A DNA stretch of 64,000 nt from Microbacterium terricola (GTDB taxonomy: Bacteria > Actinomycetota > Actinomycetes > Actinomycetales > Microbacteriaceae). Shown piece after piece: positions 1,933-15,347 of the stretch. Numbering within the stretch: the stretch's first letter is position 1; each line of letters begins with the position of its first letter. The position numbers and the translations under genes are program-made. The notes beneath the pieces were generated by a model, which was not told the DNA's origin, searched no databases, and saw only the letters and a list, made by a program, of their open reading frames with translations. The DNA lies in contig NZ_AP027141.1 of assembly GCF_027943945.1 (NCBI RefSeq), positions 2,542,001 through 2,606,000 of the forward strand. The letters run 5' to 3'.

Positions 1933-1984
1933 GGTGACGGTTGCTGCCGCATCTTGCTGTCGCAGCGACCACAACTGACACCTC
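1933..1984 (+). repeat. REP-like palindromic repeat, copy A
   Basis: A 52-bp element that starts GGTGACGGTTG and ends CAACTGACACCTC, so its ends are imperfect inverted repeats. It is 49/52 identical to copy B at 2016-2067 and lies in the same orientation. It falls in the gap between tetR and the AbiEi/DUF559-like gene. Confidence 0.75.
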
Positions 1985-2015
1985 GCGGGCCATCCCTGTG
2001 ACCCTGAGGCGATTC

Positions 2016-2067
2016 GGTGACAGTTGGTGCCGCATCCTGCTGTCGCAGCGACCACAACTGACACCTC
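2016..2067 (+). repeat. REP-like palindromic repeat, copy B
   Basis: A 52-bp element, GGTGACAGTTGGTGCCGC at the left end and CAACTGACACCTC at the right. The left and right arms match as inverted repeats over about 11 bases with one mismatch. Its pairing with copy A, 31 bases away, mirrors the downstream pair C and D. Confidence 0.75.
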
Positions 2068-2158
2068 GCAGGCCCTCCCCAGACATGGTGGCGCCCAGAT
2101 TGTCCACGGATGCTGTCGCCGCCCAAGTCCTGAGAGTGGCGAGGTGCACAGTGGGCCG

Positions 2159-3136
2159 ATGTCGCCCCACGCCCGCCGGCTGCCCGCAGAGCTCGCGGTG
2201 GCCTTCACCCGCAGTCAAGCGCTCGAGCGCGGAGTGACGCCCAGGCGTCTGCGAGCCCGCGATCTCGAGACTCCGTTCCGCGGGGTGCGACTCCGACCTG
2301 AACCACCGGGCCAGCCCCCGGACGGGCCGCTCGCGCTCGATCGGCTCTCGCGCGCGAGGCTGATGCGCCGGGCACGTGCGTACGGCCTGATCATGTCGAC
2401 GGAGTCCTTCTTCATCGGGCGCACAGCTGCAGTGATCCTCGGCGCGCCCCTCGAACACACTGGTGACCTCGACGTCGGGGTGTTCGCGCCGGCTCGCGCG
2501 CCTCGCCGCAGGGGCATCCGCGCGATGAAGCTCGCCCGCGGTCTCGCCGCAGTCCTGTCACACGACGGGCTGCGGGTCACCTCGCCCGCGACGACGTGGG
2601 CGATGCTCGCCGGCGAGCTCAGCATCCGTCAACTCGTGCACATCGGCGACGCATTCGTGCGCGTGCCGCGCGACGGCCGCGGCCACCATCAGCCGGCGAT
2701 GGCGCTCACGACGATCGAACTCCTCCGGCGGGCGGCGCTCGCTCCTCGTCGACGCGAGAGGGCCAAGCTCCTCGCTGCGCTCGCGCTGGTGCGGGTGGGG
2801 AGCGCCTCCCCCCTCGAGTCCGACTTCCGCATCGACGCAGCGCGCGCGGGGCTGCCCGAGCCCGAGCTGGATGTCGAGATCTTCGCCGACCACGGCCGCC
2901 GCATCGGCATCAGCGAGGTCGTGTTCCCTCGTTTCCGAACCGTGGTCGAGATCGAAGGCGACCACCACCGCACGAGTCGCGCGCAGTGGCACCGGGACAT
3001 CGAGAAGTACGCGGCGTATGGGGCGGAGGGGTGGGAAGTGGTGCGCCTCACGTCCGAGCACATCAGGGGCCAGCACCCGCTGGCGGTGGGGATGGTTTGG
3101 GCGGTGCTCCTCCGCCACGGGTGGCAGCCGGAATGA
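2159..3136 (+). CDS. Putative AbiEi-type N-terminal domain plus DUF559/Vsr-like nuclease
   Basis: A 325-residue protein. Residues 1-50 (LAVAFTRSQALERGVTPRRL, then FRGVRL) resemble the winged-helix AbiEi_4 antitoxin domain. The C-terminal block near 255-325 has the DUF559/Vsr-like endonuclease pattern: VVEIEGDHHRTSRAQWHRDI, then YGAEGWEVVRLTSEHI. The acidic residues and the His of this PD-(D/E)XK-type fold are therefore visible. Such proteins are common and multicopy in actinobacteria, with no settled function. There is no toxin partner next to it. It is flanked by two palindromic repeats on each side, and the downstream repeat begins inside its stop codon. Start ATG 2159 is moderately certain. 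Confidence 0.7.
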   Translation: MSPHARRLPAELAVAFTRSQALERGVTPRRLRARDLETPFRGVRLRPEPPGQPPDGPLALDRLSRARLMRRARAYGLIMSTESFFIGRTAAVILGAPLEHTGDLDVGVFAPARAPRRRGIRAMKLARGLAAVLSHDGLRVTSPATTWAMLAGELSIRQLVHIGDAFVRVPRDGRGHHQPAMALTTIELLRRAALAPRRRERAKLLAALALVRVGSASPLESDFRIDAARAGLPEPELDVEIFADHGRRIGISEVVFPRFRTVVEIEGDHHRTSRAQWHRDIEKYAAYGAEGWEVVRLTSEHIRGQHPLAVGMVWAVLLRHGWQPE

Positions 3137-3188
3137 GGTGTCAGCTCGTGCCGCACCGCCGGCATCCAGCGACCACACCTGCCACCTC
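3135..3188 (+). repeat. REP-like palindromic repeat, copy C
   Basis: A 54-bp element beginning GAGGTGTCAGCTCGTGCCGC and ending CTGCCACCTC. Its first bases overlap the TGA stop (3134-3136) of the nuclease-like gene. It is nearly identical to copy D and clearly related to copies A and B, sharing the CATCCAGCGACCACA-type core. Confidence 0.75.
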
Positions 3189-3217
3189 ACGCCCGCTGCA
3201 TCCCCGCGTCCCCCCGT

Positions 3218-3271
3218 GAGGTGTCAGCTCGTGCCGCAACGCCCGCATCCAGCGACCACAACTGCCACCTC
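3218..3271 (+). repeat. REP-like palindromic repeat, copy D
   Basis: A 54-bp element in the same orientation as copy C and 29 bases from it, differing at only about three positions. It ends 18 bases before the sdaA stop codon, so the pair sits between two convergent genes and could also act in transcription termination. Confidence 0.75.
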
Positions 3272-3289: not shown

Positions 3290-4783
<1,494 letters not shown>

Positions 4784-10967: not shown

Positions 10968-11019
10968 GAGGTGTCAGCTCGTGACCCTTCACCGGGGAGA
11001 TGCGGCACGAGCTGCCACC
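10968..11019 (+). repeat. REP-like palindromic repeat, copy E, in a convergent gap
   Basis: GGTGTCAGCTCGTG (10970-10983) pairs with CACGAGCTGCCACC (11006-11019), a 14-bp stem with one mismatch and a 22-base loop. The left arm is identical to the left ends of copies C and D near 3.2 kb, so this is the same family with a different centre. It lies between the stop codons of two convergent genes and may terminate both. Confidence 0.75.
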
Positions 11020-15228: not shown

Positions 15229-15265
15229 ATCCGGTCGTGCCAGTTCGACTCCGCCCTCCCCCAAC

Positions 15266-15329
15266 CCGTTTACGGACGGGACACGCCGCGTCGGCGACAG
15301 ACCAAGCGGCGCGTCGCGTCCGTAAACGG
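15266..15329 (-). repeat. Long imperfect hairpin element between lacI and araB-like gene
   Basis: Two 23-base arms, 15266-15288 and 15307-15329, pair with only two mismatches around an 18-base loop. Both arms contain GTTTACGGACG or its complement, and C/G-rich flanks extend the stem. There is no T tract, so it is not a standard terminator. The structure resembles the 52-54 bp palindromes elsewhere in the window but has an unrelated sequence. Confidence 0.7.
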
Positions 15330-15347
15330 CTGGGGGGACGGGTGGGG

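Follow-up and report, generated by a model that had tools for sequence, protein, structure and literature searches.

A gene for a predicted nuclease in Microbacterium terricola stands between two pairs of palindromes, and we think it rather probable that gene and palindromes together form one unit of a REPtron-like system, comparable to repetitive extragenic palindromes (REPs) and their REP-associated tyrosine transposases (RAYTs) but built on an enzyme unrelated to RAYTs. The observed basis of this reading is the flanking of the gene on two sides, gene-specific palindrome types, their covariation with the protein, their dispersal, their presence or absence between species, the lack of a Y1 transposase in the tested genomes and a single cassette insertion that duplicated 46 bp of its target; from this basis we infer that the protein binds, cuts and spreads the palindromes. 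The window, the whole stretch of 64,000 nucleotides analyzed here, corresponds to positions 2542001-2606000 of the single-contig, 3.25-Mb genome. Loci and genomes are cited by L and G numbers where they have to be told apart. The features concerned are as follows.

1933..1982, + strand: palindrome copy A (50-bp core), upstream of the gene
2016..2065, + strand: palindrome copy B (50-bp core), upstream of the gene, 83 bp after A
2159..3136, + strand: AbiEi-like / Vsr-I-Bth0305I-like nuclease gene, assigned from homologues, a 28-sequence alignment, a structure model and fold matches
3137..3186, + strand: palindrome copy C (50-bp core), downstream of the gene; its TGA foot at 3134-3136 is the stop codon
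3220..3269, + strand: palindrome copy D (50-bp core), downstream of the gene, 83 bp after C
10970..11019, - strand (the better model match): dispersed solo copy E of the type of A-D, 7.7 kb away

An earlier reading of the window, made from the sequence alone (the sequence-only reading), had described pairs upstream and downstream of the gene, and this arrangement was confirmed, with all four copies in one orientation and 83 bp from start to start within each pair. Its figure of 49/52 identical bases for A and B was reproduced, and C and D, noted as about 51/54, agreed in 52/55 bases compared here. Over the 50-bp cores, identity was 47/50 within each pair (A/B and C/D), 33/50 between A and C, and 37/50 between B and D. 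Copy C does start within the stop codon, the TGA at 3134-3136 opening TGAGGTG. The same reading gave all four copies shared ends; A opens with GGTGACGG, and therefore the exact GGTGNCAG end is not common to all. The arm pattern (at most one mismatch) matched the window 11 times, compared with 1.1 matches expected and none of 100 shuffles reaching 11; one of the matches, at 3870, is probably unrelated. The palindromes in the window are not a product of chance.

When the whole genome was searched with a C/D query, ten matches at E <= 4.1e-4 were obtained in nine places, two of which are the pairs flanking the window gene. Copies of this type occur singly, in pairs and in one array of four; paired copies in this genome are in direct orientation, spaced mostly by 83-84 bp. 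Two paralogues in the same genome have their own, differing palindrome types, CTCACCTGTCGCAA for L008 and CCGTTTACGGACGGGACACGCC for L009, the latter gene lying at 2806226-2807242 of the genome. A palindrome of the L009 type is also found in the window, at 15254-15341, as a second palindrome family of like kind.

The start of the window gene at ATG 2159 (325 residues) is an estimate, GTG 2144 being a possible alternative. Matches to a structure model of the protein (mean predicted local distance difference test score 94.4) indicate an AbiEi-like part joined to a nuclease domain like those of the homing endonuclease I-Bth0305I and Vsr, in support of the 'Vsr-like' label given by the sequence-only reading. 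E220, E264, H270 and D280 are invariant across 28 aligned family sequences, and residue 253 is D or E in all of them (by eye); mapped onto the EDxHD/Vsr catalytic motif, these positions make up a predicted active site. The further label 'DUF559-like' does not hold for the protein alone at the Pfam cut-offs, its scores being 14.6 bits for DUF559 (PF04480; cut-off 20.6) and 17.6 bits for MTES_1575 (cut-off 38.2); DUF559 was matched at E <= 0.01 by 17/28 family members. The nuclease assignment is carried by the fold and the family alignment.

We then considered 139 loci of the family, gathered from part of the listed matches, mostly from Microbacterium with a few from other families; in 138 of them a stop codon and the flank on either side were available. 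The 350 nt upstream of each gene were aligned with the 350 nt downstream, and the best alignment was held against a threshold set at the 99th percentile of mismatched pairs. This flank test was passed by 92/138 loci, compared with 36/4140 mismatched pairs; one pass (L144) is a gene-placement artefact, leaving 91/137 usable loci with matching upstream and downstream repeats. Among controls, 1/163 neighbouring open reading frames (ORFs) passed, as did 2/39 window genes, one being the nuclease gene itself. Palindromes with a score of at least 13 were present in 72/135 upstream and 74/135 downstream flanks, versus 1/135 and 2/135, respectively, after first-order-Markov resampling. Across a phylum sample, the family was present at E <= 1e-20 in 49/296 genomes, and 14 of the 29 loci examined, which are fewer than the matches (two of them, L338 and L351, are genes already in the first set), passed their own threshold, versus 9/812 mismatched pairs. 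The window member is largely inherited in place, because 27/139 loci, its own included, sit convergent beside a serine dehydratase gene (sdaA; counted by eye). Fourteen of these 27 pass the flank test; their palindrome sequences vary between species, yet the two flanks of each locus agree.

Palindrome type tracks the protein. Across 82 loci selected because their upstream and downstream palindromes match, similarity between palindromes correlated with protein identity (r 0.41; top of 1000 permutations 0.13), most weakly so for the N-terminal 60 residues. Strong palindrome similarity (score at least 34) was absent below 50% protein identity and was seen in 22% of 36 pairs at 60-70% and in 67% of 9 pairs above 70%. 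We also searched twelve genomes with a single query made up of twelve palindromes taken from them. Own-type matches made up 134 of the 150 rows listed out of a larger number, which include both strands of one place and gene-flanking copies; another count gives 133, because a long row in G290 starts beyond the range it covers. Of the 16 other-type rows, 13 were G015-type copies in G248, and a gene resembling L059 was therefore predicted near such copies in G248. The predicted gene was found at G248:2305201-2306106, 78% identical to L059 and flanked on each side by copies of that type. In G015, the one G248-type row lies next to what is left of a gene that shares 85% identity with L183/L184 over 104 aa, and the remaining two rows come from G051 and G290. 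L279 (G015:2755551-2758900) is what remains of a nuclease gene, interrupted by an in-frame stop and still accompanied by the palindrome type of its family. A covariance model built from this genome's copies (R1) also matches other types weakly, and its counts in relatives were therefore not used as copy numbers.

All 28 dispersed sites examined, a subset of the known sites comprising 20 in four relatives and 8 in this genome, are intergenic; by a simple ORF rule, 11 lie between convergent, 14 between tandem and 1 between divergent genes, with 2 undetermined. The even spread that the sequence-only reading had named as speaking against a link to the gene was not seen. Instead, listed copies are enriched near it: 25/69 listed sites in ten gene/palindrome sets lie within one tenth of a half-genome from the gene, versus 6.9 expected, in a count that leaves out G051, G062 and G082, uses one approximate genome length, merges arrays in part and, for genomes other than this one, draws on the listed copies with the highest similarity, a choice that may bias it towards duplicates close by. 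Sites within a genome are non-independent, and two of the sites lie 2-3 kb from their gene; with one site per genome, the mean relative distance to the gene was 0.31, versus 0.5 expected (sd 0.09).

Copies are also gained or lost between species. A palindrome upstream of groES in G290 has no counterpart in G057, G127 and G071 and no clear one in G091; the region orthologous to an array of four in G248 has no palindromes in G127 and G091; a one-copy site in G169 is empty in G071; and one orthologous site has two copies in G248 versus one in G071. At some orthologous sites, copies are present in both species compared (G248/G071, G169/G127 and G051/G091). At an intergenic site beside apparently the same downstream gene (L287/L019), the palindrome types differ between G248 and the M. 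terricola genome.

An insertion is preserved at one of the two paralogues.

G000:C1:1941997-1943565 (this genome): L008 cassette between direct repeats; gene 1942307-1943260

L008 and its palindromes are bracketed by two perfect 46-bp direct repeats, 1523 bp from start to start, each containing the stop codons of both convergent neighbour genes (by eye); a third, diverged partial copy adjoins the right-hand repeat. When the flanks were joined, they corresponded to one uninterrupted stretch in G304, G238, G066 and G220, where some 6 to 33 bp separate the two stop codons (by eye); G252 and G101, which are outside the alignment, also match across the joined flanks. Because of this match to uninterrupted empty sites in relatives, we conclude that the L008 cassette entered a short convergent gap, duplicating 46 bp. 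No comparable repeat outside the palindromes was found in any other of 136 loci (L144 excepted as an artefact), and long flanking duplications, clear in L008 only, were rejected as a general rule.

In the mechanism that we propose, a chromosomal nuclease combining an AbiEi-type DNA-binding part with a Vsr/EDxHD-type catalytic domain would recognize its own palindrome of 50-65 bp, probably in dimeric form with a protomer on each arm, and would nick or cut at or near it. Repair of the break would place copies of palindromes between genes elsewhere, perhaps with a preference for nearby sites, and would occasionally move the whole cassette. A dimer cutting near the centre of such a palindrome would fit what is reported, in the available excerpts, of AbiEi-type proteins, which bind 23-bp inverted repeats, with two studied members not binding each other's sites (PMC7319586), and of an EDxHD homing endonuclease, which dimerises on target DNA nearly 60 bp long (PMC3943268). 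The sequence-only reading had suggested a nuclease rather than a RAYT as the partner of the repeats. By position this is well supported, given the 91/137 loci, the types shared among related proteins and the absence of the Y1_Tnp transposase (PF01797) from 12/12 palindrome-bearing genomes (control positive in 5/14 genomes), and a RAYT as hidden mobiliser was rejected on the last count.

Several observations weigh against the REPtron-like reading. A third of the usable loci (46/137) have no matching flanks, the duplication was seen at one insertion only, and part of the covariation may come from gene and flanks being inherited together. Repeats without the gene family, which the sequence-only reading had also counted as adverse, were partly seen: palindromes related to the window type occur in G009, G005, G002 and, weakly, G003, with no cognate gene detected, a gap in the G009 assembly being possible because it consists of 80 contigs. 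Palindromes of the GAGGGGTCAGTTTYTGTCGC type (L070, L074, L266) flank a divergent gene in G016; they stand at many sites in G009, where the cognate gene was likewise undetected.

It is unlikely, if by no means negligible, that the protein is a sequence-specific regulator or chromosome organiser that moves no DNA, with the palindromes as operators and dispersed binding sites and the nuclease domain vestigial or regulatory. According to the excerpts available (PMC7319586), AbiEi proteins use inverted repeats to repress their own promoters; the sites are dispersed in genomes; and 2 to 277 bp separate the end of the upstream stretch that matches from the assumed start codon (among the alignments listed, L144 excepted). 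The operator function suggested earlier may fit these upstream copies, but it does not account for the downstream (74/135) and dispersed ones. Tandem arrays, presence or absence between species, the L008 insertion and clustering near the gene are also left unexplained, and the 28 sequences show no variation at the acidic and histidine positions that would be expected to serve catalysis. The protein does resemble AbiE type IV toxin-antitoxin systems (AbiEi antitoxin; Rv2827c) in its AbiEi-like antitoxin fold. By contrast, it has an added nuclease domain, its repeats also lie downstream and dispersed, and no AbiEii nucleotidyltransferase toxin gene was found among the four neighbours scanned (DUF4287, TetR, serine dehydratase and glyoxalase); an AbiE operon was rejected for want of this partner.

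A free-standing, homing-endonuclease-like selfish gene, with the palindrome as target, breaks repaired from the cassette and solo palindromes as targets or scars, appears improbable. The catalytic-domain fold is shared with I-Bth0305I and Vsr; however, no intron or intein was seen around the window gene, which lies between complete palindromes and interrupts none of these assumed targets, and the family stays at the sdaA locus in 27/139 loci. The four aligned empty sites of L008 have no palindrome, and homing into existing palindromes was thus not seen at the single insertion studied. Near-identical extra copies were absent from our set, in which same-genome relatives are at most 59% identical (26 pairs). 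At E 1e-5, a search of 50,697 phage records gave no match to the window protein, a search of 72,556 plasmid records gave two partial matches, and the protein matched 0 PADLOC defence families; a horizontally moving defence or phage gene was rejected on these results. That the palindromes are instead miniature inverted-repeat transposable elements moved by an unrelated transposase, or transcription terminators, and lie near the nuclease gene incidentally is very improbable: many dispersed copies do stand at gene 3' ends (11/28 between convergent genes) and some palindromes exist without a detected gene, but gene-specific pairing on two sides, the covariation, the G248 gene found as predicted, the lack of matching flanks at ordinary genes and, DDE transposases not having been surveyed, the absence of Y1 transposases from 12/12 genomes all argue otherwise.

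Taken as one REPtron-like unit, gene and palindromes can be compared with REP/RAYT systems (TnpA-REP; REPtrons, REPINs). In the excerpts available, RAYTs are described as single-copy genes of which a genome has several types, each accompanied by repeats of its own (PMC3116915; PMC8266576), and a conserved tetranucleotide, mostly GTAG, precedes the REP palindrome (PMC8266576). Similarly, each gene described here is a distinct chromosomal gene in single copy that has a palindrome type of its own on its flanks, several types coexist in a genome, each with its gene, and the palindromes are dispersed, extragenic, often in pairs or clusters and rarely on plasmids. Unlike RAYTs, the enzyme is AbiEi plus Vsr/EDxHD-like and not HUH/Y1; the palindromes are longer, at 50-65 bp, with direct pairs mostly 83-84 bp apart in this genome; and GTAG stands at the foot of none of the 17 aligned copies of this genome's type (by eye). 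In the titles and abstract beginnings of the openly licensed PubMed Central literature, we found no description of a link between palindromes and DUF559/AbiEi-nuclease genes.

The questions of how REP-like repeats spread and of what keeps their enzymes in genomes are known mainly from RAYTs, and the two-sided palindromes of these nuclease genes hint at a way of spreading repeats for which we found no description. We put at about even the chances that Actinomycetota hold a second, independently evolved REP-type world, in which every AbiEi-Vsr fusion nuclease co-evolves with a dispersed palindrome of its own and these enzymes spread repeats by double-stranded DNA cutting and repair and not by single-strand HUH chemistry. 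If so, an unrelated nuclease family would follow a like genomic logic, and the arrangement would have evolved more than once. The family would also offer many natural enzyme/target pairs for reading DNA specificity, the presumed target being written beside each gene, and would account for a class of interspersed repeats and of poorly annotated nuclease genes in Actinomycetota.
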